Positions 1 through 24,683 of a stretch of 64,000 nucleotides of DNA are shown one piece after another (within the stretch, counting starts at the first letter, position 1; each line of letters starts with the position of its first letter). The stretch covers positions 620,001-684,000 of the forward strand of contig NZ_JACHIP010000005.1 of assembly GCF_014203275.1 (NCBI RefSeq), in the 5' to 3' direction. The DNA comes from Granulicella aggregans. GTDB taxonomy: Bacteria; Acidobacteriota; Terriglobia; Terriglobales; Acidobacteriaceae. The position numbers and the translations under genes are program-made. Under the pieces are notes generated by a model that worked only from the letters and a program-made list of their open reading frames with translations, was not told where the DNA came from and did no database searches.

Positions 1-108
1 CGGCGGTAGTCATTTCGTGTAGTGCGGCAGCAGGTCAGGAGCCCTATACTGGTTCGGATCTCAACTGTAGCCGGATCTGGACTGCTTAGCTTCTACGGGA
101 ACAGACCC

Positions 109-5465: not shown

Positions 5466-5520
5466 TGAGGTGTTGTCCTTGCTGGTCTGAAGATCGGGAA
5501 TGACATTTTGAGCAGCTCGC

Positions 5521-5550
5521 AGGTGGAACCGCATCTTTGCGGTTCCACCT
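5521..5550 (-). terminator. Perfect 12-bp stem hairpin after the receptor gene
   Basis: The arms AGGTGGAACCGC and GCGGTTCCACCT pair perfectly around a 6-base loop, starting 8 bases after the receptor stop codon on the minus strand. No T-run follows in that direction, so it may be a weak or partial terminator, or an mRNA-stabilising stem that sets the ratio of receptor to downstream phosphodiesterase. Confidence 0.6.
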
Positions 5551-5558
5551 GCTGGCAA

Positions 5559-8963: not shown

Positions 8964-9246
8964 CGGATCCTCTTTCGCACTCGCCAAATTACACATCCAG
9001 CCAATTCAGTCTTTCGGGGACAGAACGTTGAAGCGATTCGTTCTCTCGTTGATGAAGCTAGCGGACGACATTCGGTGAAGTGCAGTGATTTCTCCGTGAT
9101 TGCTCGCATGTTCATCCCGCGCGAAGCAAGGAAAGGGCAAAACCGGCTATGCGAAGATGCGGGACAACAAGGTGAAACGGAGGTGATTTACAGAGCTGTA
9201 ATCGATGCAGCGGTAGGATTGACCCACCGAAGGATCTTGAACTGGT
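8964..9246. promoter_or_regulatory. Divergent promoter region, locus 1
   Basis: This 283-base gap separates the receptor (minus) from the membrane regulator (plus) and must hold both promoters. A dyad TTACAG-AG-CTGTAA sits at 9188-9201, about 45 bases before the regulator start, and could be an autoregulatory operator. I see no convincing -35/-10 pair. Confidence 0.4.
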
Positions 9247-10665
9247 ATGAGCAATGCATCCGTTGACCACCACCCGGAGCTGGAAGCTTCGTCCAGCACA
9301 CTATGGGATGGTGACCCTCGGTATCTGCTTCTTCAGCGCATCCTTGCAGCGCCGGACTTTGTGCGTTCCCCGCAGCTCTCCAAGTTCCTTCTATACGTCT
9401 GCAATGCGACTTTCGAGGGGCGTGAGCAGAACCTGAGCGAGCAGCATATCGGCGTCGAAGTCTTCGGGCGTGAGCCCAACTACGACTCGGCTGCGGATAC
9501 GATCGTCCGCTCCCATGCGCTCCGTCTGCGGCGCAGGCTCGAACAATACTTCCAGAGGGCCGGGCAGCAAGAGCCGATGCACCTCGTCATCCCTCGCGGT
9601 GGGTACGTTCCTTTATTCATCCCGAGGCTGGCTGCTCCGGATCAAGTCGCTCCTAACCCTGTCGCCAACCCCGACGGCATCCGACCCGAGATAGACGAGA
9701 GCCACGATGCGAACGGCGAGGAAGTTCCGAACTTCATCGCGATCGCCGAGCAATCGTCGAATTCTCGAGCGCTTGCAGAGAGCGAAGACCCTGCCGGGTC
9801 ATCTTCACGCACTCTGCGCGGGTACCGAGTTGCGATCGCAAGTTTGGCCCTGATTTGCGTGGGTCTGGTTGGCGTAATGGCGATGCACCTGCGGACCCAT
9901 CTCCCGGTAACGCGGCATCATCTTTTATGGAGCCGGCTATTCACGGAAGATGAGCCTACACAGATCGTTCTCGGCGATTCGGGCCTGGTTCTCTTTCACG
10001 CTGTTGCTCGCGAGTACGTGAGTCTTCATGACTATCTCAGCGGCGATGTCAGCAAGCAGATGCCCTCCATCGCCCATGTCGATCCCGACTTCGCGCAGTT
10101 CCTCTTACATCGCAGGTACACGTCGATGGTGGATGCCACAACGCTCACTCATCTGCTACGTCTGCCCGAGGCGGTGCCCGACCGGACATTGGTTCACTAC
10201 AGCCGGGATATGCACCTCAACGACTTCAAGACAGGCAACGTCATCATGGTTGGCGCGCAGGAGGCCGTACCGTGGGTGGAACTTTTCGAAACGCATATGG
10301 ACTTCCGCTTCAGCATTGAGAATGCGGATAAACACGCTTCCTTTATCAATCGGCACCCGATGCTTGGCGAGGCAACGGAGTATAGCTCAGTTTCGATTTC
10401 AACTAAGGGCAAGGTTTACTCGGTCGTGGCGTTTCTTCCAAATTTGAGCGGTACTGGAAATGTGTTGATCCTGGAAGGGCTATCTATGGCCGGTACAGAA
10501 GCAGCCGTGGACCTAGTTATGGACGATGATCGGTTAATCCCGATCTTAAACAAAGCTCGAAAACCAGATGGATCGATCTACCACTTCGAGATGTTGCTTG
10601 AGAGCGAAGGTCTGGGCGAGGGCGCCGGGCCAGCCCGGGTTGTGGCTATGCATACGCATGACTGA
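9247..10665 (+). CDS. Membrane-anchored regulator-like protein with conserved periplasmic sensor domain, locus 1
   Basis: The protein has 472 residues in three parts. Residues 20-130 form a cytoplasmic domain (FVRSPQLSKFLLYVCNATFE, HIGVEVFGREPNYDSAADTI, VRSHALRLRRRLEQYF, VIPRGGYVPLF). This domain is widespread at the N-terminus of bacterial proteins annotated as adenylate-cyclase- or TolB/TPR-type and looks like a winged-helix DNA-binding fold. One transmembrane helix lies near residues 192-214 (VAIASLALICVGLVGVMAM). The C-terminal part would be periplasmic and contains IVLGDSG, PWVELFE (near residue 342) and FLPNLSGTGN. A paralogue with the same layout is at 22113-23525, also divergent from a TonB-dependent receptor. 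By analogy with ToxR/CadC-type one-component regulators, I infer that it senses a periplasmic signal and controls the adjacent receptor. No catalytic motif was seen. Confidence 0.75.
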   Translation: MSNASVDHHPELEASSSTLWDGDPRYLLLQRILAAPDFVRSPQLSKFLLYVCNATFEGREQNLSEQHIGVEVFGREPNYDSAADTIVRSHALRLRRRLEQYFQRAGQQEPMHLVIPRGGYVPLFIPRLAAPDQVAPNPVANPDGIRPEIDESHDANGEEVPNFIAIAEQSSNSRALAESEDPAGSSSRTLRGYRVAIASLALICVGLVGVMAMHLRTHLPVTRHHLLWSRLFTEDEPTQIVLGDSGLVLFHAVAREYVSLHDYLSGDVSKQMPSIAHVDPDFAQFLLHRRYTSMVDATTLTHLLRLPEAVPDRTLVHYSRDMHLNDFKTGNVIMVGAQEAVPWVELFETHMDFRFSIENADKHASFINRHPMLGEATEYSSVSISTKGKVYSVVAFLPNLSGTGNVLILEGLSMAGTEAAVDLVMDDDRLIPILNKARKPDGSIYHFEMLLESEGLGEGAGPARVVAMHTHD

Positions 10666-10872
10666 CGCTCGCCCTGAGGGCACAACCTTCTCCTTCAACA
10701 GCAAACCAGCTAATTTCCCGGAGCGTGCCAGTCGCCAATGCGCCTTCGATCTGGTTGGGAACTTGGGTTGGCCTGTTAGCGGCAGTTGGGAAACGGACTT
10801 ACCGTTCCTAAGGGTGGCGGCAAAGGCGAATCGCCCCTGCCACCTGTTGGCCCATGGGAACGGCGCGTCTGG

Positions 10873-11646
10873 CTAAACTAAGCCGGTCATATTCGGTTGA
10901 CCATTCGAGGCAGTAATACCCCCATCGACCGGCAGATTCACTCCGTTCACGAACGCCGCATCTTCGCTTGCGAGAAATGCAATCACGCTCGCCACCTCTT
11001 CCGGCTTCGCGCCGCGCCCGATAGGAAGCCGGTCCTTGAATTTCGCGACGAGAGGTTCGTTATTTTCGAAGTCTGCCGTCATCTCGGTCGAGGTCAGGCT
11101 GGGATTGACGGCATTGATACGAACCCCCTGCGACCCTAACTCCAGCGCGAGCGCACGGGTCAGATTCGTGACCGCACCCTTCGCAGCATTGTAAATACTG
11201 CCGCCCCAATCACCGCCGAGCCCCGAGACCGAAGAGACATTCACGATGGAACCCTTCGTCATCAATAGATGAGGGAGAGCGGCTCGGATCGCAAAGTACA
11301 CGCCGTCCACATCAATGCTCATCACCTTGCGCCACTGCTCCGTCGTGCTCTCCAGGATGGGGCCGAACGCGGCGACGCCGGCGTTGTTCACGAGAACATC
11401 GACGCGTCCGAACTTCGCCACCGTGTCCCCCACTAATTTCGCGACATAGGTTTCATCGGAGATATCTCCATCGTGCAGCAGCACCCGCTTGGCGTCGATG
11501 CCACTCGCTGTCTCTGCCAGCTTGTCCTTACGGCGCCCATTGAGAACCACCAGCGCTCCCTCGGCGAGGAAGCGCTTCGCCGTTGCAGCTCCGATGCCTG
11601 AACCGGCGCCCGTCACAATCACTACTTTTCCTTCAAACCGATTCAT
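10873..11646 (-). CDS. SDR family oxidoreductase (3-oxoacyl-ACP reductase/glucose dehydrogenase-like)
   Basis: This is a classical short-chain dehydrogenase/reductase of 257 residues, cytosolic and NAD(P)-dependent. The Rossmann glycine motif is VIVTGAGSGIG at the N-terminus, NNAG is present, the catalytic Ser lies in IVNVSSVSG and the catalytic Tyr-Lys in YNAAKGA. The Arg after the first strand region (LNGRRKDKL) favours NADP(H). The C-terminal LPVDGGITASNG is normal for the family. It converges on the regulator gene to its left. A decayed SDR fragment lies just upstream (11677-11890), so this may be the survivor of a tandem pair. The substrate is not predictable. Confidence 0.88.
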   Translation of the reverse strand: MNRFEGKVVIVTGAGSGIGAATAKRFLAEGALVVLNGRRKDKLAETASGIDAKRVLLHDGDISDETYVAKLVGDTVAKFGRVDVLVNNAGVAAFGPILESTTEQWRKVMSIDVDGVYFAIRAALPHLLMTKGSIVNVSSVSGLGGDWGGSIYNAAKGAVTNLTRALALELGSQGVRINAVNPSLTSTEMTADFENNEPLVAKFKDRLPIGRGAKPEEVASVIAFLASEDAAFVNGVNLPVDGGITASNGQPNMTGLV

Positions 11647-11676
11647 GGTGTCTCCTATTGTTTGCTGCTAGCTCCT

Positions 11677-11890
11677 CTACCAGCCCCCGTTGGCGTCAAT
11701 GATCTGACCCGTGGTGCATCCGTTGCCCGCAAGCACCAAGGAAATCGACGCAATCTACTCGACTTTGCCGAATCGCCCAGACGAAATGAGACTAGGCTTG
11801 ATCCGGTCGTTCTCCCTCAACATGTCCGTTTCAGTCAGGGCCGGGGCGTCTCATTAATGGTAATACCTTCTTTTGTAAGAAGCATGGCGC
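11677..11890 (-). pseudogene. Decayed C-terminal fragment of a second SDR
   Basis: Minus-strand reading gives LTKEGITINE, then after a one-base shift ALTETDMLRENDRIKPSLIS, SSGRFGKVE, an in-frame stop, and IASISLVLAGNGCTTGQII followed by DANGGW and a stop. This is the usual C-terminal third of an SDR, carrying at least one frameshift and one nonsense codon. The catalytic and cofactor regions are gone. It sits between an intact SDR and the GH92 gene. Confidence 0.75.
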
Positions 11891-11908
11891 GTCCATGCAT
11901 CATGCCAA

Positions 11909-14200
11909 TCAATCTCGGCTTGCAGCCATCTCAAAAATGATCTCTCCACCCGATACGAGGTCGAAATAGCTGATCTTGTACCCATTGACGCTGCGGCCGT
12001 TGAGGAGAATCTGTGTCACATATTTTCTCCCTTCTCCGGCACCTTTGGCGGCGATATGCAACCGCTTCCCAGTGGGAAGAAGTACGGTAACATCGTCAAA
12101 CCTGGGCGAGCCGAACCAATACTCGGGAACTCCAGGAGTTACCTGGTAAAAGCCGAGAGCGCTAAGGACATACCATGCGCTCATCTGCCCGGCATCGTCG
12201 TTTCCAGCGAGACCATCGGGTGCATCTTTGTACTCGCTGTCCATTAGGGCGCGAACGTGCTGCTGTGTCTTTCCTGACGCTCCAGATGCGTCATACAGGT
12301 ATGCGATGTGATGGCTTGGCTCGTTGCCATGATCGTAGAAGCCGCCGTCGAAGAGGCGGTCGAGCTTTGCGGTAAATGCCTTGTCGCCGCCTTCTGACTC
12401 GATGAGGCCCGGGACATCTTGGGGAACAAAGAAGGTGTACTGCCACGGCAAACCTTCGGTTATCCATGATTGCTTGCTTGCGGGATCGGATGGCGTGGTC
12501 CAGGTTCCATCCTTGTATCGGCCTCGGGCAAAACCCGTCGTCGGATTAAGAACTTTGCGCCAGTTCTGTCCGCGCCGCTGAAAGAGCCTCGCATCGTCCA
12601 TCTTTCCTAATGCAGCGGCCAACGTGCCGATCATGGCATCGTCGTAGGCATACTCCAGTGTGCGCGAGATTTGCTCATCCTTGTGGAACGCTTCGGGGAT
12701 GTGGTCTTCGAGTGGGATGTATCCAAGTTTCAGATAGGAGTCCAAGCCTCGTCGCCCCTTGCCATCTTTGCCCTCTTCCGGAGAAGGAACCGACACAGCA
12801 TTCTTTCGTATGAGAGAGTAGGCCGCATCGATGTCGAAACCACGCAGCCCTTTCTTGTAGGCGTCGATGATGGTGACCGAGGAGTGGTCGCCAACCATCT
12901 CTGAGGTGTAGCTATTCCAGGCCGGGAAGATGGGAAGATAGCCTCCCTGTTGACCTTTGAGAATCAACGATCGAACCATATCGACCTCCCGATCGGGATC
13001 GAGAATAGTCAGCATCGGGTGCTGAGCGCGGAAGGTGTCCCACATGGAGAAGTCATCGTAATAGACGAAACCTCCCGCGTGTTCGACCTCGCCCTTTCCC
13101 GCGAAACGAGGGTAGCTGCCATCAACATCGCTGAAGGTTCGCGGGTGCAACAGAGCATGATAGAGCGCGGTATAGAAGACGTCCCTCGCCGGGATGTCAT
13201 CCTTCACTTCGATCCGGGACAACTCACTCTCCCATGCAGCCTTGGCCCTCGCCTCGACCGCATCGAAGTTCCAATCGGCGATCTCGGCGCGCAGGTTCTT
13301 GCGAGCCTCATCTACGCTGACGAAGGACGTGCCGATGCGCACCACGATCGTCTCGCCAGCCCGCATCGCCGGAAAGCGAACATACGTGCCGAAGCCGGGG
13401 CGAGTACTTACGGTGGGGAGACTCGCGGCCGCCTTTGCCGCTCCACCAGTTGTAGTCGCAACCTTCGCGACCGGCAACACACCGAGAGGCAGACCATCAC
13501 CGTGCTGCTCCGCAATGCCCTTGCGAATATTAACTCCCGACCAGGCCCCCTCTGCCGTAAAGCTACGGCTGAATTCGACCACGAAGTAGCTGCTGAAGCC
13601 CGCAAGCTTCCCACTTCCGGCGTACTCTCGCCTCACCGGAACTTCGCCCGTTACCTCCTGCGCCTTGTGGTCTACACGAACCCAGCCGTCGCCACCGCGA
13701 GCGTTGTTCTCAATCACAATGGAGCCGTCGCCCTCATGCTGCGCTGTGAACCGCATCATTCCCGATCGTGTTGTTCCCGTGATCTCAGCAAGGACACCCG
13801 CATCCGCAAGATCCACCTTGTAGGAATAGGGCGTCGCACGTTCGCTGGCGCGAGCGAAATGGGACGCTCGATCAACTGCCGAGGTCTTCAGCGCTCCCAG
13901 CGAGGGCATGAGCGTTACGCTGCCGTAGTCAGGCACGCAGCTGCCGCTAAGAAAGTGAGAGCCGCGAAACCCCTGAATCATCGTGTCCGCAAAGTAGTAC
14001 GGCGCTACGCATTTGATCTCCCCGGCGCGCGTCTGTGGAGTCCAGTGGGTCATCGCGAAGGGAACGCCTGTCGCTGGATAGGTCTGGCCCTCGTTCGCCG
14101 TGCCTACCAAGGGGTGGACGTAATCCACCGCACGGCTCTGTCCAAACAAAGAGGACGTCGGAGTGAGTGCAACGAGTAAGAGAAAGATACAAACTTTCAT
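11909..14200 (-). CDS. Secreted GH92 family alpha-mannosidase
   Basis: GH92 enzymes are calcium-dependent exo-alpha-mannosidases acting on alpha-mannose in glycans. The ATG at 14200 follows AAAGG at good spacing; a GTG two codons upstream is less likely. The signal peptide is MKVCIFLLLVALTPTSSLFG. Family hallmarks include HPLVGTANEGQTYPATGVPF near the N-terminus, FRGSHFLSG, YDDFSMWDTFRAQHP, GQQGGYLPIFPAWNSYTSEM, DDAMIGTLA, and GLAGNDDAGQMSAWYVLSAL with GFYQVTPG near the C-terminus. At 763 residues it has normal length. It is the last gene of the minus-strand run GH27-GH28-GH27-GH92 behind the receptor at 18329, so it probably trims mannose from the imported or outer-membrane-bound glycan. Confidence 0.9.
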   Translation of the reverse strand: MKVCIFLLLVALTPTSSLFGQSRAVDYVHPLVGTANEGQTYPATGVPFAMTHWTPQTRAGEIKCVAPYYFADTMIQGFRGSHFLSGSCVPDYGSVTLMPSLGALKTSAVDRASHFARASERATPYSYKVDLADAGVLAEITGTTRSGMMRFTAQHEGDGSIVIENNARGGDGWVRVDHKAQEVTGEVPVRREYAGSGKLAGFSSYFVVEFSRSFTAEGAWSGVNIRKGIAEQHGDGLPLGVLPVAKVATTTGGAAKAAASLPTVSTRPGFGTYVRFPAMRAGETIVVRIGTSFVSVDEARKNLRAEIADWNFDAVEARAKAAWESELSRIEVKDDIPARDVFYTALYHALLHPRTFSDVDGSYPRFAGKGEVEHAGGFVYYDDFSMWDTFRAQHPMLTILDPDREVDMVRSLILKGQQGGYLPIFPAWNSYTSEMVGDHSSVTIIDAYKKGLRGFDIDAAYSLIRKNAVSVPSPEEGKDGKGRRGLDSYLKLGYIPLEDHIPEAFHKDEQISRTLEYAYDDAMIGTLAAALGKMDDARLFQRRGQNWRKVLNPTTGFARGRYKDGTWTTPSDPASKQSWITEGLPWQYTFFVPQDVPGLIESEGGDKAFTAKLDRLFDGGFYDHGNEPSHHIAYLYDASGASGKTQQHVRALMDSEYKDAPDGLAGNDDAGQMSAWYVLSALGFYQVTPGVPEYWFGSPRFDDVTVLLPTGKRLHIAAKGAGEGRKYVTQILLNGRSVNGYKISYFDLVSGGEIIFEMAASRD

Positions 14201-14239
14201 CGACACGCCTTTAGGAAGGAAGCGGTAAGGACAAGCAGG

Positions 14240-15436
14240 CTACTTCGAGAGGCGCAGGATCACAGAACCATGCCGGGGAATGGTGAAATGTGTCGAGTCG
14301 TCGATAGGGCCAAGTTCCTTCGCCGCCCACACATCCCGCGCACTCCAGCCCCTGAACGCGCCTGCCTGTTCCAGATGTAGCGAGATGCCGCGCAGGTAGC
14401 AGCGTTGTTCGCCAAAGTTGAAGATTGCAAGAGCACTTCCACCATCGGCTAGAGGACGAGCCCATATCTCGATCGGGCCTTCGGCGTAGATACGATCCGC
14501 CTGCTTCCCAAGCGTGTCCTGATCGATTGCGAGTATCTCGCGATTCGTCAAGATGGCCTTGATATCGGGCGTAAGTTGCGAGAGATTGTTCCCTGCCAGC
14601 AGAGGCGCGGCCAGCATCGCCCACATGCCCATGTGCGTGTGATTCTCATCGAGGGTGAGCTTGCCGTTACCCACCTCGAGCATGTCCGGATCGTTCCAAT
14701 GACCGGGAGCGGCGTAGCGAGCGAGACCTGCTTGCTCGCGGCCTATGAGCGAGATGCGATCGAAGGTGGGTGTGATGTCGCCCGTCGTGCGCCAGAGATT
14801 GGCGCCTACCTCCGGCCCCCACTGCCACACGGAATCGAAGCCGTATTGGCAGAGGCTATACACGATAGGCCGACCAGTCTTGAGGAGCGCCTGGTGCATT
14901 TTCTCGTAGGCGTCACGCATCATCTTGTACTGGAGGTGCATGGCCTCCGGGCTATCGCCCGGATGTTCCTTGCGCATTACACCGTTGTGAAAACTGCACA
15001 GATCGTACTTGAGATAGTCGATGCCCCAAGAGGCGTAGAGCTGGGCATCCTGCTCTTCGTGCCCGAGGCTGCCTTCAAATCGCGCGCATGTCTTGGGTCC
15101 GGGGGAGCTATAGATGCCGAGCTTCAGCCCCTTGCTATGCACGTAGTCCGAGAGCGCCTTCATGTCTGGGAACTTGTCGTTGCTGTGCAAATTGCCCGCT
15201 TCGTCGCGGGTGCCCTGCCAGGCGTCATCGATGTTGACGTAGACGTAGCCGGCATCGCGCATGCCTGAGGAGACCAGCAGGTCCGCAGCCTGACGAACAT
15301 CCTTGTCCGTCACCTTTTCGGCGAACCAGTTCCAGGAGTTCCACCCCATGGGTGGCGTCGCCGCAAGTTTGACTTGTGCTGACGCGAAGGACGACAGGAG
15401 AGCGAGCGCGAGAAGTGCTGCCATTCGTGAAGGCAT
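14240..15436 (-). CDS. Secreted GH27 alpha-galactosidase
   Basis: A retaining exo-glycosidase of 398 residues that removes alpha-galactose or, in some GH27 members, beta-L-arabinopyranose. It has a signal peptide (MAALLALALLSSFASAQ) and the family entry motif TPPMGWNSWNWF. The nucleophile Asp is in YLKYDLCSFH (about residue 145), the likely acid/base Asp in TTGDITPTFD, and HWNDPDMLEVGNG and WAMLAAPLLAGNNL are also present. The C-terminal beta-sandwich is short (EIWARPLADGGSALAIFNFG). It is seven bases from the GH28 gene upstream and 39 from GH92 downstream, so the genes are very likely cotranscribed. Galactose release fits an arabinogalactan or galactomannan target. Confidence 0.92.
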   Translation of the reverse strand: MPSRMAALLALALLSSFASAQVKLAATPPMGWNSWNWFAEKVTDKDVRQAADLLVSSGMRDAGYVYVNIDDAWQGTRDEAGNLHSNDKFPDMKALSDYVHSKGLKLGIYSSPGPKTCARFEGSLGHEEQDAQLYASWGIDYLKYDLCSFHNGVMRKEHPGDSPEAMHLQYKMMRDAYEKMHQALLKTGRPIVYSLCQYGFDSVWQWGPEVGANLWRTTGDITPTFDRISLIGREQAGLARYAAPGHWNDPDMLEVGNGKLTLDENHTHMGMWAMLAAPLLAGNNLSQLTPDIKAILTNREILAIDQDTLGKQADRIYAEGPIEIWARPLADGGSALAIFNFGEQRCYLRGISLHLEQAGAFRGWSARDVWAAKELGPIDDSTHFTIPRHGSVILRLSK

Positions 15437-15443
15437 AATTTTC

Positions 15444-16862
15444 CTAGCGAATCAATGTGGCGGGTAGACCGGGGCGAGCCGATTTCCCTTTGAAGTTTTC
15501 GAGCTTGAGCCCGGTCACATGCTCAGCTTCGAGCGCGTAGCTGAAGTAGTCGGCATGATGAACGCCCCAACTGGCGCTGCAGTTTCGAAGCACCGCGCCC
15601 TGCACGTTACGTAGAAAGAAGGCAGGCGTATCGTGCTTCTCCAAGCCTCCGGGTTCGTGCATGGGATCATCGGCCCGCGTGGGCCTGTTGTCGAACATGC
15701 CGCCCGGATATTGTGTCCAACGATCGATCTCCACCGAGCAATCTTCCAGCAGCACGTTCTTCACAGGCTGTTCCGGATTAGCGTCGATGCGGAAGCTATT
15801 CTCGGCAACACCGCGCACGTTCTTGAAACGCACGTTGCTCAACGACCCCGTCTTCCCGTCCTTGATCCTGGGCCACACCGTTACTGATGCAGCTTCTCCC
15901 CAGCCCCACCAACGGGCCGCGTGATGTTGTGCCAGGAAGTCGATGTCGCGAAACTCTACGTTCTCGATGTTGCCTGGCTGGCGATGCGTGATCGTCGGTC
16001 CGCGACCGCCGGAGACGATGCGGCAGCGCTCGAAGAGAATCTTCGAGATATCGCCGAAGGTCTCCGTCCCAATCTTCAGGCCGCTGTCCCGGCAGACGAC
16101 CGAGCAGTCGCTCACCGTGATGTTATGTGAGACCCCATAGTCTTCGTCGCCCGTCTGCTGGCTGGTCTTGATGACGATGCCGTCATCCGCGCAGACCAGG
16201 TCGCAGTTTTTGATCTCCATGTCACGGCAGCGGTCGGGATCCATGCCATCGCAGTTCGGTACATCGAGATAGTTGCGAACGCGAACCCCGTCGACCAGTA
16301 CGTGCTCACAGCCAAGTGTGTGCAGGCCCCACTCCGGCGAGTGCCCGAATGATATTCCGGAGATCTCAAGCCCCTTGCAGCCAATCAGATGAAACATCCT
16401 CGGCCTGAAAGGAAGGGGCTCCCAGCGTTCATGAACCGGCGAGTAGTTGCCCATGAACTTCATGCCTTGTCCATCGACATGTCCAGTGCCCGTTATAGAC
16501 AGATTGATTGCGCTGTCCGCATTGATGACACCCCTGTTCTTCTTAAACCCGTAGTGCGCGGCCTCAGGACTGGCAAGTAGGACCGCATCGTCAGCGAGAT
16601 GAAAATTGACGTTGCTCTTCAGCATCAACGCTCCAATCAAAAAACGCTTGCCGCCGGGCACAACGACGCGGCCGCCGCCTGCCGCCGATATCTGGTCGAT
16701 GGCCTGCTGAATAGCTGGGCTATCGAGCGTTACGCCGTCACCGATCGCTCCCAGAGAGAGCACGTTGATCTCGCGCGCAGGCGTTGATTGCGCGAACGAA
16801 GGTAGCCAGTTGAGTCCGGCGATCGAGAGAGAACTGAAGAGGAAGGATCTGCGCGTTGCCAT
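15444..16862 (-). CDS. Exported GH28-like polygalacturonase/rhamnogalacturonase (beta-helix)
   Basis: A right-handed beta-helix hydrolase of the pectin-acting GH28 group. The N-terminus has a twin-arginine-like leader (MATRRSFLFSSLSIAGLNWL) ending in FAQ, then the typical start INVLSLGAIGDGVTLDSPAI and GGGRVVVPGGKRFLIG. The catalytic-region acids are visible as NCDGMDPDRC and CADDGIVIKT. The usual G-H-G step is instead DSGLKIGTETFGD, with THRQPG later, so specificity within or near GH28 is uncertain. It lies between two GH27 genes in one minus-strand operon. A role in opening pectin or rhamnogalacturonan next to galactan side chains is inferred. Confidence 0.8.
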   Translation of the reverse strand: MATRRSFLFSSLSIAGLNWLPSFAQSTPAREINVLSLGAIGDGVTLDSPAIQQAIDQISAAGGGRVVVPGGKRFLIGALMLKSNVNFHLADDAVLLASPEAAHYGFKKNRGVINADSAINLSITGTGHVDGQGMKFMGNYSPVHERWEPLPFRPRMFHLIGCKGLEISGISFGHSPEWGLHTLGCEHVLVDGVRVRNYLDVPNCDGMDPDRCRDMEIKNCDLVCADDGIVIKTSQQTGDEDYGVSHNITVSDCSVVCRDSGLKIGTETFGDISKILFERCRIVSGGRGPTITHRQPGNIENVEFRDIDFLAQHHAARWWGWGEAASVTVWPRIKDGKTGSLSNVRFKNVRGVAENSFRIDANPEQPVKNVLLEDCSVEIDRWTQYPGGMFDNRPTRADDPMHEPGGLEKHDTPAFFLRNVQGAVLRNCSASWGVHHADYFSYALEAEHVTGLKLENFKGKSARPGLPATLIR

Positions 16863-16888
16863 GGTTATCCTGACGTTCGAAAGATGGG

Positions 16889-18247
16889 CTACGGTGTCAG
16901 CTCTAGAAGAATGCAGCTGTGCGCGGGGAGTGTCACATTGATCGAGTCCGAGCGCCCGCGATCTTCATTCGACCATAGCTCCCTGCTCTTATAACTGATA
17001 GCTGGCAAGTTGTAGAAGCTGTAGGTGCGCTTGATCGTCTTATCCCTATCGTTCAGGTTGAAGAGAGCAAGATAGCGAACATCGCCTTTGCCTGCAGCCG
17101 TCCACGCAACCGTGTCTCCTTCGCGAGCCACCTGGCGTTGATCGCGCGCGTACTGGTTCACATCGAGGACATCGCGGTTGGTGAGGAGACTTGTTGTCCA
17201 ATCATCGAGCTTCGTAAGGTTGGCCCCAATAATCAACGGCGAACGCATTACTGCCCACAGCGTGAACATTGTTTTTTGCTCGTCTCGCGTTAAGCGCGTC
17301 TGGCGAGCCTCTCCGTCACCAGGCTGTGGGCCAAGATAACCAATGGGAAGCATGTCGGCATCGGGCCATGCACCGTCATGAGCGTAGGGTGTCCACGCGG
17401 CAGCAAGCTCGAACTGATCATGCACACTGCGCGGCGCATGCCTGGCATTCTTCCAGTAGTCCCAGAGGTCATCGGAGATGCGCCACGTCTGCGCATAGGG
17501 AGTCAACTCTTGTGCGATCCCCGGCGAAACGGGGCCAGGTGAAAGGCTGAGAACGATAGATCGGCCAGTCTTTACGATGGCGTTGTGGATCATCCGAATC
17601 TCGGAGGGCCGGTACGGGTGGTCAGAGATGCAGTCGACCTTGATGAAGTCCACTCCCCAACCTGCGTACTGGGCCATCAGAGAGTCGTACCATGCCTGTC
17701 CGGCCGGCGTATTTCGAACACCCCAATTCGTCGGGTCCCATGGGCAGGGATCGCTGGCGTCAGCGACATCGCTCGCATGGAATTGGCTATTCGCAACGGG
17801 CGTGTTTTGCTTTAATGCCTCGCGCGGAATACCGCGAACAATGTGGATACCGAACTTCAGTCCCTGTGAGTGTACGTAGTCCCCAATTACGCGGAACCCC
17901 TGATTCTTGTCGTCGACGATGGCGGAAGGAAAGCGCTCTGGGACAGGGTTATATCGGCCATTCGCATCGATCTCGTAGGCGACCTTGTCGGGCGTCTTCA
18001 GGTCGAGAGGATTCTTAAGGAACCAACCTTCGTCGATAACAGCGTACTGCCAGCCGTAAGGCTTCAGCGTCCTAGCCATCACGTCCACGTTATCGCGAAA
18101 CTGTGGTTCGGTGATGGTCAAGCCATAGGCGTCCCAGCTATTCCAGCCTAGAGGCGGATGAGGGGCAAGATCTGCCGGAGCCTGTGCGGCAGACGAGAGG
18201 AGCGACCCCAGAGACAAGGTAGATAAAAGAACGAGCCAAAGACGCAA
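16889..18247 (-). CDS. Secreted GH27 alpha-galactosidase/beta-L-arabinopyranosidase-like
   Basis: This is a second, divergent GH27 enzyme of 452 residues. The frame is open from a TTG at 18268, but GAGGAG six bases before the TTG at 18247 makes that the better start; it leads straight into a signal peptide (RLWLVLLSTLSLGSLLSSA). The family motif is HPPLGWNSWDAYG, the nucleophile Asp lies in FIKVDCISDH (about residue 205), and the acid/base Asp in TWRISDDLWDYW. DADMLPIGYLG and SPLIIGANLTKLDD follow. The extra length compared with the GH27 at 14240 is in the loops and C-terminal beta domain. It is the first gene after the receptor terminator and heads the hydrolase operon. Confidence 0.9.
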   Translation of the reverse strand: MRLWLVLLSTLSLGSLLSSAAQAPADLAPHPPLGWNSWDAYGLTITEPQFRDNVDVMARTLKPYGWQYAVIDEGWFLKNPLDLKTPDKVAYEIDANGRYNPVPERFPSAIVDDKNQGFRVIGDYVHSQGLKFGIHIVRGIPREALKQNTPVANSQFHASDVADASDPCPWDPTNWGVRNTPAGQAWYDSLMAQYAGWGVDFIKVDCISDHPYRPSEIRMIHNAIVKTGRSIVLSLSPGPVSPGIAQELTPYAQTWRISDDLWDYWKNARHAPRSVHDQFELAAAWTPYAHDGAWPDADMLPIGYLGPQPGDGEARQTRLTRDEQKTMFTLWAVMRSPLIIGANLTKLDDWTTSLLTNRDVLDVNQYARDQRQVAREGDTVAWTAAGKGDVRYLALFNLNDRDKTIKRTYSFYNLPAISYKSRELWSNEDRGRSDSINVTLPAHSCILLELTP

Positions 18248-18279
18248 CAAGATCTCCTCGTAATGCAATACCAGGGGAA

Positions 18280-18316
18280 GAAAAACCCAGCGTGCATGGA
18301 TTCGCGCACGCTGGGT
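18280..18316 (-). terminator. Rho-independent terminator after the locus 2 receptor
   Basis: An 11-bp perfect stem (ACCCAGCGTGC / GCACGCTGGGT) with a 10-base loop lies 12 bases past the receptor stop. On the minus strand it is followed directly by a run of T (AAAAA on plus at 18281-18285). It lies before the GH27 start at 18247, so downstream enzymes would be made by read-through or their own promoter. Confidence 0.85.
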
Positions 18317-18328
18317 ATTGGGAAAGAG

Positions 18329-21300
18329 TTAGAAGGTGATCTTCGCGGCGATCTGGAGCAGGCGAGCGTCGTTGGCCGTAGCAGTGATGCGTCCAAAGGT
18401 CGAGCTCGAACTGATCGCCGTGTTGGGGTTGGCATAGTTGGGATGATTGAGCACGTTGAAAGCCTCTCCACGAAGTTCAAGCTGCGCGCGCTCGTAGATC
18501 GGGAAGTGCTTGCTGATGGCTGCATCGACATTGGCGAAGCCAGGGCCTCGCGCCTGCAGTGGAGCTTCGTTCCCGAAGGTACCGAGAGGCTGCAGAGCGT
18601 ATGCGGCAGAGTTGATCCACAGCGGCTTCACTCCAGTAGCGGGGAAGAGGTTCTTGGAGTAGAGCTTCTGTCCCGCAACGATGTTCGGCCGGTCCTGACC
18701 AATCGCGGTAAGCGAGCGGTCCGTGCCATCGGTCACGGTGTAGGGCATGCCTGTGCGATAGGTGATCAACGGGCTGAGTTGCCACGCACCCAGAGCGTAG
18801 TTCAAAGCATGCTGGCGGAGCTTCGGTGAGGTTGCCACACCCGAGATCGTGAGGTTATGCGTCGTGTCGAAGTTGCAATTACCGTACTCTGCTGAATGGT
18901 TGTTAGGGTTCTGGGCAGGAGGCGTGTTGTCGCCCGTATAGTTCATGTTCGAGAGGCAGTGCGACCAGGTGTAGTTCGCCAACACGGAGAAGTTGTTCGC
19001 GAAGCGGTGATTGACCGTCGCGATCACGCCGTTGAAGTTGGCCATGCCGTAGTCCGATGTACCGCTGAACGCACCATAGCGAGTTCCCGCCGTCGTGTTG
19101 TTGGCGATCGCCGCGCGGTAAAGGATATAGCGTTGCGACGTGTTGTTCGTCGTCGCCGCCGCACCCGTTGGCGTCGCTGCCGGCGTCGCGTAGTTATATG
19201 GCTGGAAGCCCCATAGATGAATTGTGCTTGTGCCGATGTAGCTCAACGAGGCAAGCCAGTTCGCAGAGACTTGATTCTGATAGCTGAAGTTGTACTGGTG
19301 CATATACGTTCTGCGAAGGTCGCTCGGGTAGTACCCGGTTGAAACGTTCTTTGCGGGAAACGCAGCAGTGCTAGGGGCTGGATACTGGGTCGGGTAAGGA
19401 TTCCCGCCAGTGATCTTCTTCCATGGATCATCGAACGACTTCACCGTATCCGTCTCATTCGTGGAGTTATCCACGGTGAAGGCCTGGGCAGAGGCATTCG
19501 GGGAGTTTCCTGGGAAGCCCGAATCATAGTAGAGCTCAGGGGCCTCGAAGGTCAGCGTGTAGGAACCACGGATGCTTGACTTCCCGTTGCCCTGAGGATC
19601 GAAGGCGAAGCCAAAACGGGGGGAAAAATTAGTGTAGCGGGAGTTGACGAAGCCGGGCTTCACGCCCTTGTCTCCGTAGAAGACGATTCCGGCAGGGGCA
19701 TTCGTGTATATGCTCGAAACCGTGTTCGAAGCGAAGGCCGTTGGGCTGAACTCGCCACCGATGTTGTTCTTCTCGTACTCCGGGAACCATGGCTCCCAAC
19801 GAAGACCTGCGTTAATGGTCAGGTTCTTCGTCGCGTGCCAGGTGTCCTGCGCATAGTAGCCGAAGTAGTTATAGCGGAGATGCGCCGCCGCACCTGGGCC
19901 GTAAGCCTGGGAGAAGGTGTTGGGCGCGCCCAGAAGAAGGTCTGCCAGACCAAGACCAGAGTACGAAGCATTGAAGGTGAATTGGCCGTTTTCGGTATTG
20001 ATACCGCCAAGGTTTAGCTCTTCGTGGATGTAGTCGAAGCCGAGCTGCAGGAAGTGGCTTCCTTTCTGGATCGAGACATCGTCCGCCACCTGGTAGTGGT
20101 TCGTGACGTAGTGGGTCGGGGCACAGCTTCCGCAAGAGGCCGTAAAGGCTCCGCTGACGTTCAGATAGATATAGTTGGGAACCGACGAAAAGACATTCGA
20201 GCCGAGTGTTGCGGGAGAGATGAGGTCTCCCGGTGCCCCACGGGCGATCGCGAGGCGAGTGACCGTTCCACGCAGGGCGTTGGAGATGTTCGGCGAGATG
20301 ACGTAGTTGTCTCCAAGCGTAAGGTACTTACCGCGGTCCTTAAGGCCAGGATTGATGGCGTTAAGCAGATTTCCGTTGAAGAGCGACTTCTGGTAGTAGT
20401 TCGTCAGGAAGTAGCGCGCGAAGACGCTGTGGCGGGAGTTCAGGTTGTAGTCCAGCCGGCCGATCCACTGGTTCTCATCCTGCGGTGCTGGTACGGCATA
20501 TGAAACAAGGCCAGCCGCGTTCTGTGTCTGGGCGACCGGCAGGTATTTCGTCAGAGCCACAGCCGCCGGACTGAATAGAGCCGGGTCAATCGTCGCCGTG
20601 CAGGCTGTCGCGTTGTAGTTGAAACCCGCCGAGGCAAGCAACGTTGGGCAGGTGTTCGAAGCGCTTTGGCTCCGCTGATACTGGAGATAGGGCGTGAAGT
20701 TGCCGGCGAGCATGTCAGTCGTCGGCACAAAAGACGACGTCGTAGCCGGCGCGATGCGCAATGCCGTGCGCTGATAACCGCCAAAGAAGAACAGCTTGTC
20801 GTGGAGGATCGGCCCACCGAAGTATCCGCCAAACTGGTTGCGTTTCAGGTCCGTGTAGCCGTTGATACGGTTGTTCGCGTTCGCGTAGCTGTTGCGGAGG
20901 AACTCGAAGACGCCACCATGCCACTGGTTGCTGCCGGACTTCGTGACGATGTTGACCGCCGCGCTGGGATGTACGCCATATTGAGCGGACATGCCGGTCG
21001 TCTGAACGCTGAACTCCTGCAGCACGTCCGGGAAAGGAAAAGGCATATTCACGTTCGAGAACGAGTCGTTGTGATCGCCGCCATCCAGCAGGTAGTTGAT
21101 CTGGTTGCCCTGACCGCCGGCCACCGCGATGTTCAGGGCTCCGCCGATCGCGCTCGTCCCGGTGCTACCGTAGCTTTTGGTGCTGGTCATGTTGCCGTTG
21201 ACCGTCGGGGCCGACGCTCCAGAGAGAAGCACAAGGTTAGCCGCGTTGCGGCCGTTGAGCGGCAGATCCACAACGCGGCTCTGGTCGACAACGGTCGAGA

Positions 21301-21751
21301 TGGAGGCATCGTCGCTTTGGACCTGGCTCGCCGTTGCGTCCACCGTGACGGTGGTGTCCGTCGAACCGACTGTCAGCGGAGCATCCACCTCGGCGTCGTT
21401 CGAAACCTCGAGAACGACGCCGGTCCGGCTATACGTCTGAAAGCCCGGGGCGGTCACCTTCACCGTATAGGCACCCACGGGCAGATTGGCGAGGACGTAG
21501 TCCCCGGTGGCGGAGGTGACTGCGGTGGCCGTCGCTCCCGAAGCGGTCTGGGTGGCAACCACGGACGCGCCGGGTACGACGGCTCCGGTGTTGTCGGTAA
21601 TCGTTCCGTGCATCTTGGCCGACGAAACAGCTTGGGCAAAGAGCGCCGACGATGGCAGGAAGGCCGTCGAAATTGCAATTGCGGCACCGGTGCATGTCGT
21701 AAAGACTTTTTGCCGCGCCGGCCGGATCAAGTTGTGTAAATCAATGTTCAT
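18329..21751 (-). CDS. TonB-dependent receptor with carboxypeptidase-regulatory-like domain, locus 2
   Basis: An outer-membrane importer of 1140 residues. The frame is open to 21976, but the ATG at 21751 has a strong GGAGG site five to six bases ahead and begins a long signal sequence ending in SSALFAQ. The Ig-like regulatory domain follows (GTITDNTGAVVPGASVVATQ, YVLANLPVGAYTVKVTAPGF), then the plug (VVDLPLNGRNAANLVLLSGA; AAVNIVTKSGSNQWHGGVFE) and a beta-barrel ending AAKITF. Its minus-strand neighbours are four glycoside hydrolases. The region ahead of it contains stacked dyads (21961-22009) and the divergent membrane regulator at 22113. The likely cargo is a galactose/arabinose/mannose-containing oligosaccharide, inferred from those neighbours. 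Confidence 0.92.
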   Translation of the reverse strand: MNIDLHNLIRPARQKVFTTCTGAAIAISTAFLPSSALFAQAVSSAKMHGTITDNTGAVVPGASVVATQTASGATATAVTSATGDYVLANLPVGAYTVKVTAPGFQTYSRTGVVLEVSNDAEVDAPLTVGSTDTTVTVDATASQVQSDDASISTVVDQSRVVDLPLNGRNAANLVLLSGASAPTVNGNMTSTKSYGSTGTSAIGGALNIAVAGGQGNQINYLLDGGDHNDSFSNVNMPFPFPDVLQEFSVQTTGMSAQYGVHPSAAVNIVTKSGSNQWHGGVFEFLRNSYANANNRINGYTDLKRNQFGGYFGGPILHDKLFFFGGYQRTALRIAPATTSSFVPTTDMLAGNFTPYLQYQRSQSASNTCPTLLASAGFNYNATACTATIDPALFSPAAVALTKYLPVAQTQNAAGLVSYAVPAPQDENQWIGRLDYNLNSRHSVFARYFLTNYYQKSLFNGNLLNAINPGLKDRGKYLTLGDNYVISPNISNALRGTVTRLAIARGAPGDLISPATLGSNVFSSVPNYIYLNVSGAFTASCGSCAPTHYVTNHYQVADDVSIQKGSHFLQLGFDYIHEELNLGGINTENGQFTFNASYSGLGLADLLLGAPNTFSQAYGPGAAAHLRYNYFGYYAQDTWHATKNLTINAGLRWEPWFPEYEKNNIGGEFSPTAFASNTVSSIYTNAPAGIVFYGDKGVKPGFVNSRYTNFSPRFGFAFDPQGNGKSSIRGSYTLTFEAPELYYDSGFPGNSPNASAQAFTVDNSTNETDTVKSFDDPWKKITGGNPYPTQYPAPSTAAFPAKNVSTGYYPSDLRRTYMHQYNFSYQNQVSANWLASLSYIGTSTIHLWGFQPYNYATPAATPTGAAATTNNTSQRYILYRAAIANNTTAGTRYGAFSGTSDYGMANFNGVIATVNHRFANNFSVLANYTWSHCLSNMNYTGDNTPPAQNPNNHSAEYGNCNFDTTHNLTISGVATSPKLRQHALNYALGAWQLSPLITYRTGMPYTVTDGTDRSLTAIGQDRPNIVAGQKLYSKNLFPATGVKPLWINSAAYALQPLGTFGNEAPLQARGPGFANVDAAISKHFPIYERAQLELRGEAFNVLNHPNYANPNTAISSSSTFGRITATANDARLLQIAAKITF

Positions 21752-21960
21752 TTGTTGCCTCCGAAGTGTTTCGCGAGGGATACGTTTACTCGTATCTCTC
21801 AATCTCACAAGACCATCGCAAACCGGCCCAATCCTTGCTGCCTTCCCCTCGTGCCCTCTTGGCGCAAAGCTCGGGAAAGATTCATTGATGATGCGCATGA
21901 ACAAGTTCTTCCAGCCCCCGAAGCTTCCGGGCCTGCGATAACGGGTTGCAAGTGAATTTA

Positions 21961-22009
21961 CGGTAAGGGGGCGCATCCCTTACGCCAAAATGGCGGCCTT
22001 TACCGCCAT
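21961..22009. promoter_or_regulatory. Stacked dyads, candidate operator upstream of locus 2 receptor
   Basis: Two adjacent palindromes lie in the 361-base divergent gap: GTAAGGG-7 nt-CCCTTAC (21963-21983) and ATGGCGG-6 nt-CCGCCAT (21990-22009). A GGTAAnGG-like core is readable three times (plus at 21961, minus near 21977-21986 and near 21996-22005). They are about 210-250 bases before the receptor start. Binding by the neighbouring regulator at 22113 is inferred. I see no other gene in 21752-22112. Confidence 0.5.
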
Positions 22010-22112
22010 GCCTGAGGCAAATAAAGCCAGTTAACAGCTCAAGTCTTCACCGTGAGACAGGCGGTTTTCTGGGCTTTCCCGCCAGAATGCTATACTTTTC
22101 TCGCTGAGCCGG

Positions 22113-23525
22113 ATGCAAACGACAGAAATCAATCCGCCTGAAATCTTGTTTCATCCATCCAAAATGGAATGGGATAGGCTACTAGGCCGGGTGCTTGAGA
22201 GCACCCCGTTCCGCCGCTCAGCCCGGCTCCGCGACTTTCTTATCTACGTCGGGAACGAAGCGATCCTGCACGGTACTGACGATCTTCACGAGCAACAGAT
22301 CGGCACGGCGGTCTTCGGACGCTCGCCCTCCTACGACACCTCGCAGGACAATATTGTCCGCGTAAATGCGATGGAGTTGCGGAAGCGAATCGACCTGTAC
22401 TTCGCAAACGAAGGCCAGAACGAACCCGTCATCTTCGAAATCCCTCGCGGAAGCTACAGCCCAATCTTCCGCTTGCGGCGTGACGATGCCAGGGAAGTTT
22501 CACCCGATAGAGAATTCGCTATCGACGATCACCCGGTCGCAACTCCCCTTCCAATGGGAGAGACTCTTTCGCCAGAAGTGCCGGCAGTCACTCCTTCGAA
22601 ATTGTCGTTAGTTGCCCGGGCGCTTCAGAGCCCCATCTCGGGAATTCTTGCCGCCATCATCGTCTGTCTGTCAGTCTGGCTGATCGCCGAAATCAGGATC
22701 AACGAGAAGACTCAAGTCCAACTCCACAAATGGCAGAGCGCTCCAGCCCTTCGCGCCTTCTGGGGTAATTTCTTCGGAAGGAATCTTCCACCAGAGATCG
22801 TCCTTGCAGACTCGTCTTTCGGCTTGGCCCAGGATGTCCTTCACAAGAAGCTCTCTCTGGCGGAGTATCTGGACTACACCTACAGAGCGGCGCAATCCCC
22901 TGAAACCCTGACCAATGATGCGCGTGAACAGGAGCGCAAAGATCTCTCCGCTGTCTTCAATCACAGCTCCGGAAGCATAGGAGACTTTCGTGTTGCGCGC
23001 CGGATTACAGAGCTGGAGACCGGCGACGACGGCACCCGCCTCCTGTTTGCCAGAGAATACGCTGGCCATCGGCTGCGTTGGAACAACACCATCTTCGTCG
23101 GCAGCAGCAGGTCCAATCCCTGGGTAGAACTCTTCGAAGATCGAATCGCGTACCACTTCAAAGAATCCGCAGACTCGACTCCGTCTTTCGTCACCGTCGA
23201 TAGCCCGGTTGGAAATGAGCAGGCCCAGTACCCTATCTCCTCAGACTCTGGCACCAGAACGGCTTACTGCGTGATCGTATTCCTGCCGAATCCGACAAAC
23301 ACCGGGAGCACCCTGATCCTCTCCGGAACAGATTCGCAGGCGACCGAGGCAGGTGGAGACTTCCTGACCAGCGAGGAAAATCTGGAGAAGCTACAGGCTC
23401 TGTTCCAACAAAAAACATTCCCTTACTTCCAGATCCTGCTGCGCATTTCGCGCTCCAACGGAACTCCGCTCGGTTCTGAAATCATCTCCTATCGAATCGT
23501 AAAGAGTAGTGGCCATCAGCATTAA
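22113..23525 (+). CDS. Membrane-anchored regulator-like protein with conserved periplasmic sensor domain, locus 2
   Basis: A paralogue of the protein at 9247-10665, 470 residues. The cytoplasmic N-terminal domain (residues about 15-125) reads FRRSARLRDFLIYVGNEAIL, QQIGTAVFGRSPSYDTSQDN, VRVNAMELRKRIDLYF and FEIPRGSYSPIF. One transmembrane helix is near residues 173-193 (ISGILAAIIVCLSVWLIAEI). The C-terminal, presumably periplasmic, domain shares with its paralogue P-x-x-IVL-(A/G)-DS, NPWVELFE (near residue 336) and FLPNPTNTG followed by LILSG. It is divergent from the receptor at 18329 and ends 15 bases from the convergent GH43 gene. Role inferred: a one-component trans-membrane switch for the arabinogalactan-type locus. 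Confidence 0.75.
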   Translation: MQTTEINPPEILFHPSKMEWDRLLGRVLESTPFRRSARLRDFLIYVGNEAILHGTDDLHEQQIGTAVFGRSPSYDTSQDNIVRVNAMELRKRIDLYFANEGQNEPVIFEIPRGSYSPIFRLRRDDAREVSPDREFAIDDHPVATPLPMGETLSPEVPAVTPSKLSLVARALQSPISGILAAIIVCLSVWLIAEIRINEKTQVQLHKWQSAPALRAFWGNFFGRNLPPEIVLADSSFGLAQDVLHKKLSLAEYLDYTYRAAQSPETLTNDAREQERKDLSAVFNHSSGSIGDFRVARRITELETGDDGTRLLFAREYAGHRLRWNNTIFVGSSRSNPWVELFEDRIAYHFKESADSTPSFVTVDSPVGNEQAQYPISSDSGTRTAYCVIVFLPNPTNTGSTLILSGTDSQATEAGGDFLTSEENLEKLQALFQQKTFPYFQILLRISRSNGTPLGSEIISYRIVKSSGHQH

Positions 23526-23540
23526 TGTTTGCCAGGATGA

Positions 23541-24683
23541 TCAGTGAATTTCCGTAACCGTCGTGGTTCCCTTCTTTATGTCCAGTGCCCAGGGCCTTGG
23601 CGAAGGCAAATGGATCTCACCGTTCCCAATCTGCAGAGGCATCCAGATGTATCGGCTGTCCGGCAGGTTCTTCGGATTCCACCGGTCGCCTACATAAATC
23701 ACGCTCGTCGCTTCCCTTCCCTCGATCTTGATCAACATGCTTGATTGGGAGTCGTATGTATTCGCACTAGGAGGTGCAATGTCCTTGAACTCCGTCCACG
23801 GGCCATTGAGACTCTTCGCGGTTGCGTAGACGTTCGGATTCGGGGCCCAACCTGTCAGGTGAGATCCGATCACGTAATAGAGCCCCTTGTAGTGCACCAA
23901 TGCCCCGCCCTCGAGTGGGGCTTGCACGAAGCTGACTAGCTTCTCCACGTTCATGGAATCATCTGAGAGCTTCGCGATGAAGAAGCCTTTGGTTGGTCGC
24001 GACTCAAAAATCAGGTAGGCGCTCCCATCATCATCGACGAACTGGCCAATATCGCGACTCTCCTCGTTCAACGGACGGAAGCTACGGACATAGGTGTAAT
24101 TTCCATCGACCGTGTCGCTCACGGCTACCGCCACCCTCGCGACCTTATAGCCCGGCCCGTCAAGATGCATATACATCACAAATTTATGGGTCTTCTTGTT
24201 GAAAAAGACTTTCGGTCGTTCGAGTATCCAAGTGCCCAAATGCTCCGGGTCACTTTGCTTCAGCACCTGATTACGAAATTTCCAATGCACTAGATCGCGT
24301 GAAGAATAGCAGGCAACATATCGCTTGTCGGGATCATTGGAGGGTGTGCGGTCTTCGCCAAACCAATAGTAAGTGGCCTCGACTTTTATTATCCCTCCCC
24401 CATGTGCCTCAATCGGCAGTCCACGCTCATCTAGCCATACGCCACCGGGACGAACCAGGTCGTCCTGGGCCACTGCCGGACCCGATAGGGCGGCGTACAT
24501 CAGGCCGATGCCTATCGCGACCGCGACCGCACGAGCAATAGGACTCCTACGCGCACTCCGCTGGATCGAATACACCGCAATCCCTGCGCCATGCGCCGCC
24601 CCTTGCGCAGCACGAGCCTGCCCATCGACCATTCCTCGTAAACTCGCGACCTGCTCATCAGCAAAGATCACATCTATCTCCAT
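23541..24683 (-). CDS. Exported GH43 enzyme, exo-beta-1,3-galactanase-like (subfamily 24 type)
   Basis: A five-bladed propeller glycosidase. The first blade motif PIEAHGGGIIKVEATYYWFG with Glu after it is the signature I associate with GH43 subfamily 24 exo-beta-1,3-galactanases, which trim the backbone of type II arabinogalactan. Further motifs are SSRDLVHWKFRNQVL, ILERPKVFFN (acid Glu candidate), IGQFVDDDGSAYLIFESR, APLEGGALVHYKGLYYVIGS and DSQSSM. The N-terminus is unusual: about 45 charged or Ala/Gly-rich residues precede the hydrophobic export segment (IARAVAVAIGIGLMYAALSG, then AVAQ), and no clear ribosome site supports the ATG at 24683, so the start is uncertain. It is cotranscribed with the small gene at 24720 and converges on the regulator. 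It fits functionally with the GH27 genes. Confidence 0.85.
   Translation of the reverse strand: MEIDVIFADEQVASLRGMVDGQARAAQGAAHGAGIAVYSIQRSARRSPIARAVAVAIGIGLMYAALSGPAVAQDDLVRPGGVWLDERGLPIEAHGGGIIKVEATYYWFGEDRTPSNDPDKRYVACYSSRDLVHWKFRNQVLKQSDPEHLGTWILERPKVFFNKKTHKFVMYMHLDGPGYKVARVAVAVSDTVDGNYTYVRSFRPLNEESRDIGQFVDDDGSAYLIFESRPTKGFFIAKLSDDSMNVEKLVSFVQAPLEGGALVHYKGLYYVIGSHLTGWAPNPNVYATAKSLNGPWTEFKDIAPPSANTYDSQSSMLIKIEGREATSVIYVGDRWNPKNLPDSRYIWMPLQIGNGEIHLPSPRPWALDIKKGTTTVTEIH

Follow-up and report, generated by a model that had tools for sequence, protein, structure and literature searches.

Two paralogous genes in a 64,000-nucleotide stretch of the Granulicella aggregans genome (contig NZ_JACHIP010000005.1, positions 620,001 to 684,000; hereafter the window) probably encode one-component transmembrane regulators of acidobacterial polysaccharide-utilisation-type loci, with a C-terminal domain that would sense sugar. 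Each gene lies divergently from a gene for a TonB-dependent receptor. This arrangement is real, recurrent and unannotated, and it is very likely that such regulators serve polysaccharide-utilisation-type loci in Acidobacteriota.

The two proteins, regulators 1 and 2 (Table 1), align over most of their length with 29% identity across 461 columns (E 3e-50) and have in common the motifs IVLGDS/IVLADS, PWVELFE and FLPNLSGTG/FLPNPTNTG. A first-pass annotation, made from the sequence alone, had pointed out these two open reading frames and their shared motifs, and both proved to be present and paralogous. Neither regulator gave a passing Pfam match or any NCBIfam match at E up to 1; a PDB sequence search with regulator 1 and the C-terminal domain (C-domain) profile as queries returned nothing below E 0.6, and a scan of viral contigs found no relatives of the regulators. 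The profile of the N-terminal domain (N-domain), however, matched by hhalign the Trans_reg_C profile (built from at most 29 of 32 hits after two without a locus, one short sequence and those containing stops were dropped). At the curated cut-off, PF00486 (Trans_reg_C) matched neither window regulator, and across 10 paralogs it gave a single match (E 0.1; 13.1 bits against a cut-off of 26.2). In the family of this genome the winged-helix core is conserved, with arginines R83, R90 and R92 invariant or nearly so. The N-domain is an OmpR/PhoB-type winged helix, yet no Trans_reg_C member by Pfam score; profile and structure model bear out the earlier impression of a DNA-binding domain, and DNA binding is its putative function.

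Hydropathy gave a single transmembrane segment in both regulators, as had been annotated. We extended this to 90 two-domain proteins, i.e., those carrying both N- and C-domains (L058, of 376 aa, was excluded here and retained in the linkage count below; L numbers are our labels for related loci). The strongest hydrophobic stretch lay between the two domains in 88 of the 90, and a second strong segment occurred elsewhere in 5; L025 misses the criterion only through N-domain coordinates taken from a spurious second match. Lysine plus arginine stood at 2.99 inside versus 2.39 outside, a mild asymmetry, with 47 of the 90 proteins favouring an inside N terminus and 22 opposing it. Because there is one transmembrane segment and the charges lean this way, the C-domain is likely periplasmic and the N-domain cytoplasmic. 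Two adjacent two-domain proteins on the minus strand of L219 (2609-3727 and 3734-5848) have weak hydrophobic maxima of 1.24 and 1.67 and are possibly soluble versions of the regulator.

With moderate confidence, the C-domain falls in the fold group that contains BcsB, S_layer_C and the N-domains of glycosidases. It scores below membership level against the BcsB cellulose synthase subunit, S_layer_C and the N-terminal domains of glycoside hydrolase (GH) families GH115, GH84 and GH67, and hhalign against BcsB gave no significant match; unlike all of these, it is fused to a regulator and stands outside any enzyme or synthase context. The first-pass annotation had described a periplasmic sensor matching no named family; the periplasmic site agrees with the topology inferred above, and the domain turned out to be placeable after all.

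Linkage was counted in a sample of 91 two-domain proteins including the window pair: 11 from the same genome, 37 from elsewhere in the genus, 30 from the rest of the family and 11 from the rest of the phylum, plus L014 and L015. The sample omits four full-length matches outside the genus and newly seen ones within it; one homologue search scored no more than five candidates in each genome, which makes its counts minimum values. L088 (a duplicate of L065) was set apart, L082 was counted for the N-domain only, and L084 and a remnant in the window for the C-domain only. Direct divergence from a receptor gene was found for 51 of the 91, across a median gap of 254 bases (43 of the 51 at 100-420), and 83 had a receptor within 5 kb. 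Clustering at 50% identity left 59 groups; a receptor is divergent in 35 of them and lies within 5 kb in 54. Four two-domain proteins from beyond the sample (L183, L200, L201 and L202) all had a receptor within 1.5 kb, one of them directly divergent, and six weak, distant ones (L206, L211, L216, L217 and two in L219) had none in the short stretches fetched. The G. aggregans genome itself encodes at least 65 such receptors. Of its 13 N-domain proteins, 6 had one lying divergently no more than 3 kb away, where receptor density alone predicts about 1.3% (binomial 9e-9); the receptor list behind this count held the best 65 of 95 candidates, which makes it a lower bound, and direct inspection of the loci gave 7 of 13. 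The divergent pairing of regulator and receptor is not due to chance, and the repeated layout that the first-pass annotation had noted in the window holds across homologues.

The remaining 40 of the 91 proteins are not directly receptor-divergent. We scanned 20 of 28 non-receptor divergent partners and found GH2, GH115, GH27, NAGLU, GH31, two sulfatases, HGSNAT, WbsX, PI-PLC, a GDSL esterase and a GFO_IDH_MocA oxidoreductase; four were regulatory genes (a sigma factor, a LysR regulator, a response regulator and a histidine kinase), and four had no match at all. The common theme of these partners is glycan breakdown, with exceptions. A tblastn search of plasmids with the C-domain gave no match, but the profile does find it in two plasmid proteins of Granulicella tundricola, both annotated as hypothetical and neither part of the sample of 91. 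The gene for one, on pACIX901, faces a receptor gene with an endo-xylanase gene after it; the other protein's divergent partner belongs to the beta-1,3-glucanase family. Because so many members are not receptor-divergent and several face glycan enzymes, what the members share as a target appears to be glycan-utilisation loci, not just receptors. The ToxR/CadC-like switch for Oar-type receptors proposed earlier thus keeps its layout and its recurrent pairing, while its restriction to receptors was too narrow.

Both partner receptors in the window are of the Oar-type/CarboxypepD_reg TonB-dependent class: the PF25183 barrel matched receptors 1 and 2 at E 5.1e-224 and 2.3e-203, and CarboxypepD_reg at E 7.8e-18 and 1e-19. 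With the longest open reading frames the regulator-receptor gaps are 250 and 136 bases; if the receptors begin at the downstream ATGs listed in Table 1, they are 283 and 361 (counted by hand on the translations), which recovers the 280-360 bases of the first-pass annotation. That later start is favoured because the conserved block at 21948-21968 lies upstream of the ATG at 21751. In module 1, the trio of regulator, receptor and phosphodiesterase recurs in four other genomes, with the receptor match split in two pieces in L249 and L252. In module 2, receptor 2 is followed on the same strand by GH27, GH28, GH27 and GH92 with gaps of 7-60 bases, an order repeated beside a regulator ortholog in L253 and, up to GH28 where the stretches end, in L014 and L015 (Bryocella elongata). 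Both modules were found again in other genera, and each regulator retains its own receptor across related loci.

Table 1 Features of the two regulator-receptor modules and genes next to them, in window positions
Feature	Position	Strand	Value or basis
Regulator 1 (P0001), 472 aa: winged helix, one transmembrane segment, BcsB/S-layer-like C-domain	9247..10665	+	
Regulator 1 N-terminal OmpR-type winged-helix domain, residues 22-125	9310..9621	+	profile; model of paralog
Regulator 1 single transmembrane segment, residues 195-213	9829..9885	+	hydropathy 2.58
Regulator 1 C-terminal sensor domain, probably periplasmic, residues 225-472	9919..10662	+	
Regulator 2 (P0002), 470 aa, architecture as regulator 1	22113..23525	+	
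Regulator 2 N-terminal OmpR-type winged-helix domain, residues 17-120	22161..22472	+	profile and structure model
Regulator 2 single transmembrane segment, residues 174-192	22632..22688	+	hydropathy 2.41
Regulator 2 C-terminal sensor domain, residues 214-464	22752..23504	+	
Receptor 1, PF25183 + CarboxypepD_reg + Plug; likely start 8963	5559..8996	-	
Receptor 2, PF25183 + CarboxypepD_reg; likely start 21751	18329..21976	-	
Type I phosphodiesterase/nucleotide pyrophosphatase, conserved beside receptor 1	4101..5558	-	
GH27 (Melibiase), after receptor 2, same strand	16889..18268	-	
GH28 (polygalacturonase type)	15444..16862	-	
GH27 (Melibiase), second copy	14240..15436	-	
GH92	11909..14206	-	
Short-chain dehydrogenase, possible last gene of the GH row; not found in related stretches	10873..11646	-	
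GH43-type enzyme directly downstream of regulator 2; not found in related module stretches	23541..24683	-	
Module 1 conserved element, CAGTGATTTCTC core	9083..9099	+	gap alignment
Module 1 conserved element, GTGA-N7-GTGA then TTAC and TGTAA	9171..9204	+	gap alignment
Module 2 conserved element GCAAGTGAATTTACGGTAAGG, receptor-proximal	21948..21968	+	gap alignment
Module 2 conserved element CAAGTCTTCACCGTGAG, regulator-proximal	22040..22056	+	gap alignment
TGCTATACT, extended -10-like box before regulator 2, putative promoter; TGCTAT-CTTT kept in four orthologs	22088..22096	+	

Alignment of the shared gaps of four orthologs per module revealed short conserved blocks within otherwise poorly conserved sequence in both modules: CAGTGATTTCTCSGWGA and GGTGAARYGNAGGTGATTTACM followed by TGTAAYCG in module 1 (at 9083 and 9171 in the window), and GCAAGTGAATTTACRGTRAGG and AAGTYYTYACNGTRA in module 2 (at 21948 and 22040). 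GTGA/GTAA half-sites are common to these elements, and 3 of the 4 window elements contain an 11-base repeat of half-sites, the spacing of PhoB-type sites; in the element at 9083 the second GTGA of the repeat is present in the window only, the three orthologs having GAGA. Against dinucleotide shuffles, TCAC-N1-GTGA (11 of 90; 0.75 expected) and GTGA-N7-GTGA (13; 1.25 expected) were top-ranked. GTRA-N7-GTRA occurred in 20 of 88 family upstream regions versus 17 of 328 control promoters (p 3.6e-6) and TYAC-N1-GTRA in 13 of 88 versus 25 of 328 (p 0.036), with either footprint-derived pattern in 18 of 88 versus 16 of 328 (p 1.8e-5), the footprint-derived patterns having been chosen after seeing the family and the sequences being partly related. 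A window-wide search for more copies of the elements gave none that was convincing.

The N-domain also occurs with other tails. Among 22 scanned acidobacterial N-domain proteins without the C-domain, 8 had tetratricopeptide repeat (TPR) tails, 5 a PD40 propeller, 8 malectin and 1 GH16 (the scan left out L194 and L195, both with a matched N-domain and neither directly divergent from a receptor, and about 10 further N-domain proteins). None of the eight TPR-tailed proteins (L024, L184, L185, L186, L189, L191, L209 and L210) is directly receptor-divergent; three of them (L186, L189 and L210) have a receptor nearby in another arrangement. Four of the five with PD40 tails are directly divergent (L026, L188, L193 and L197; L218 is not). 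For malectin-tailed L207 and L221 the next gene on the same strand is a receptor, and for L222 a receptor lies about 2.8 kb off on the opposite strand; no receptor was present in the stretch fetched for malectin-tailed L187, L190, L192, L196 and L198 (all from one genome) or for GH16-tailed L199. The malectin- and GH16-tailed sister proteins are apparently further carbohydrate-reading regulators from other Acidobacteriota.

From the computed domain folds, single transmembrane segment, divergent linkage, conserved modules and gap elements, we infer DNA binding, topology, ligand, activation and autoregulation as follows. The cytoplasmic winged helix would bind the GTGA-based repeats in the gap common to the regulator and its divergent gene, with the single helix spanning the inner membrane. 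Glycan fragments may enter the periplasm through the cognate receptor, linked enzymes would release oligosaccharides, and the periplasmic BcsB/S-layer-like C-domain would sense the glycan or these oligosaccharides. Occupancy of the C-domain could then change the dimerisation of the DNA-binding heads and so switch the receptor-led operon. The regulator would probably activate this operon and also exert some control over its own gene.

Two results limit the support for this model. Ordinary Trans_reg_C hits are also receptor-linked (4 of 32, a lower bound from the same receptor list), and against this stricter control the enrichment is weaker (Fisher p 0.02), so the receptor-linkage excess over regulators in general is moderate. 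In addition, an unbiased motif search against real promoters yielded top scores no higher than held-out controls, and for this reason a family-wide operator is a lead, not a result. The linkage of ordinary hits, together with the sheer number of receptors and an architecture and winged-helix fold shared with the ToxR/CadC type, would suit a low-scoring ToxR/CadC member that senses pH, stress or some other general signal of the envelope, its linkage merely reflecting receptor abundance. We find this improbable, as linkage depends on the tail (none of the eight TPR-tailed proteins scanned is directly divergent, versus 51 of 91 of the present type), the glycan-enzyme modules are conserved, and many divergent members per genome suit specific signals better than one general signal. 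That the N-domain no longer binds DNA and the protein works with the receptor as a structural component or an enzyme would agree with the lack of a Pfam or NCBIfam match to a DNA-binding family and with binding being deduced; the conserved winged-helix core with its three arginines, the Trans_reg_C profile match and the GTGA elements in the shared gap make it very improbable.

A more serious alternative, though still an unlikely one, is that the C-domain reads not sugar but the receptor's own state, perhaps through contact with the receptor's periplasmic carboxypeptidase-regulatory-like domain, much as FecR reads FecA. Both receptors carry such a domain, and regulator and receptor move as pairs. 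Across 49 pairs, C-domain and receptor distances correlated at r 0.57 (N-domain 0.51), and the correlation was 0.30 once the N-domain was removed; in 1000 permutations the raw correlation reached at most 0.15. Among distant pairs only, however, r fell to 0.23, near the 0.21 of the N-domain, and the correlation is thus mostly joint descent. FecR-type signalling differs further in its parts: at E up to 1, neither receptor matched STN, and neither regulator matched FecR or a sigma domain. Because of these absences, because some relatives lie opposite glycan enzymes instead of a receptor, and because sister regulators carry malectin or GH16 domains, sugar sensing is clearly preferred over receptor reading.

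ToxR/CadC proteins combine an N-terminal OmpR-type winged helix, one membrane helix and a C-terminal outer domain, and the present regulators share the winged helix and the membrane helix and probably also the outer position of the C-terminal domain and one-component signalling; they differ in being unseen by Pfam Trans_reg_C, in their BcsB/S-layer-like sensor and in their linkage to glycan loci. A survey of transmembrane regulators identified its proteins through Pfam DNA-binding models (PMC10269533), and because of this reliance such Pfam-based surveys probably miss these proteins. Nearest in role is SusR of Bacteroides. SusR and SusR-like regulators are membrane proteins with a periplasmic sensor that control a TonB-dependent glycan-uptake locus (PMC3878776), and some of their paralogs sit beside susC/susD-like genes and others only beside glycan enzymes, much as the present paralogs face receptors or only enzymes. 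The presumed DNA-binding part of SusR is near the carboxy terminus (PMC3878776), whereas here it is N-terminal and OmpR-like; the sensor fold and the phylum also differ, and the module genes scanned include no SusD. The control systems named in a review on hemicellulase regulation are hybrid two-component, extracytoplasmic function (ECF) sigma and catabolite systems, and no word of its main text begins with 'acidobacteri' (PMC10766802). Hybrid two-component and ECF sigma/anti-sigma systems likewise place a periplasm-facing membrane sensor in control of glycan-degradation loci (PMC10766802), but the present regulators have no kinase, receiver, sigma or anti-sigma domain (Pfam, E up to 1); a kinase system does face the third receptor of the window. 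A literature search on acidobacterial glycan-locus regulators returned nothing relevant among the matches listed (open-licence PubMed Central papers, including PMC3174227, as far as their text was accessible).

On a broader reading, to which we give even chances, these proteins form an acidobacterial class of glycan-locus regulators unseen by current DNA-binding models, in which one winged-helix-plus-membrane chassis carries exchangeable periplasmic glycan-reading tails (BcsB/S-layer-like, malectin, GH16 or beta-propeller), and each tail goes with a TonB-dependent receptor and enzymes of its own. If so, tail and linked enzymes would reveal which soil polysaccharide is taken up by each of the dozens of receptors per genome, and a uniform regulator class with conserved operator-like elements would allow substrates to be assigned to receptors. 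Acidobacteria are abundant in soil, and the switching of their polysaccharide loci is undescribed among the literature matches listed. Naming the N-domain would extend past Acidobacteriota, given its occurrence on rhizobial plasmids: in Alphaproteobacteria 260 plasmid records match, mostly rhizobial (e.g., L256, Sinorhizobium meliloti plasmid pB), and the proteins are annotated as hypothetical or TPR proteins among the matches listed.

Several further observations concern degraded family members and neighbouring sensors. A 122-aa open reading frame of the window (24720-25088, minus strand) matches the C-domain at its end only (E 1.2e-4) and lacks the N-domain. Flanked by the GH43 gene and a GH13-type (alpha-amylase) gene, it is what is left of a third member of the family. 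L082 (4319-5683, minus strand) holds a broken copy with N and C pieces in separate open reading frames, and L020 (8155-9360, plus strand) a copy terminating early inside the C-domain. Close to module 1 lies a Reg_prop/Y_Y_Y histidine kinase (22-3153, plus strand), the sensor type of Bacteroidetes glycan loci. The third receptor-type gene (31602-35012, minus strand) is divergent from a periplasmic sugar-binding-type protein (35226-36233), beside which lies a histidine kinase with a 3-keto-disaccharide-hydrolase-like domain (36230-38425), i.e., the same receptor layout with a kinase sensor.

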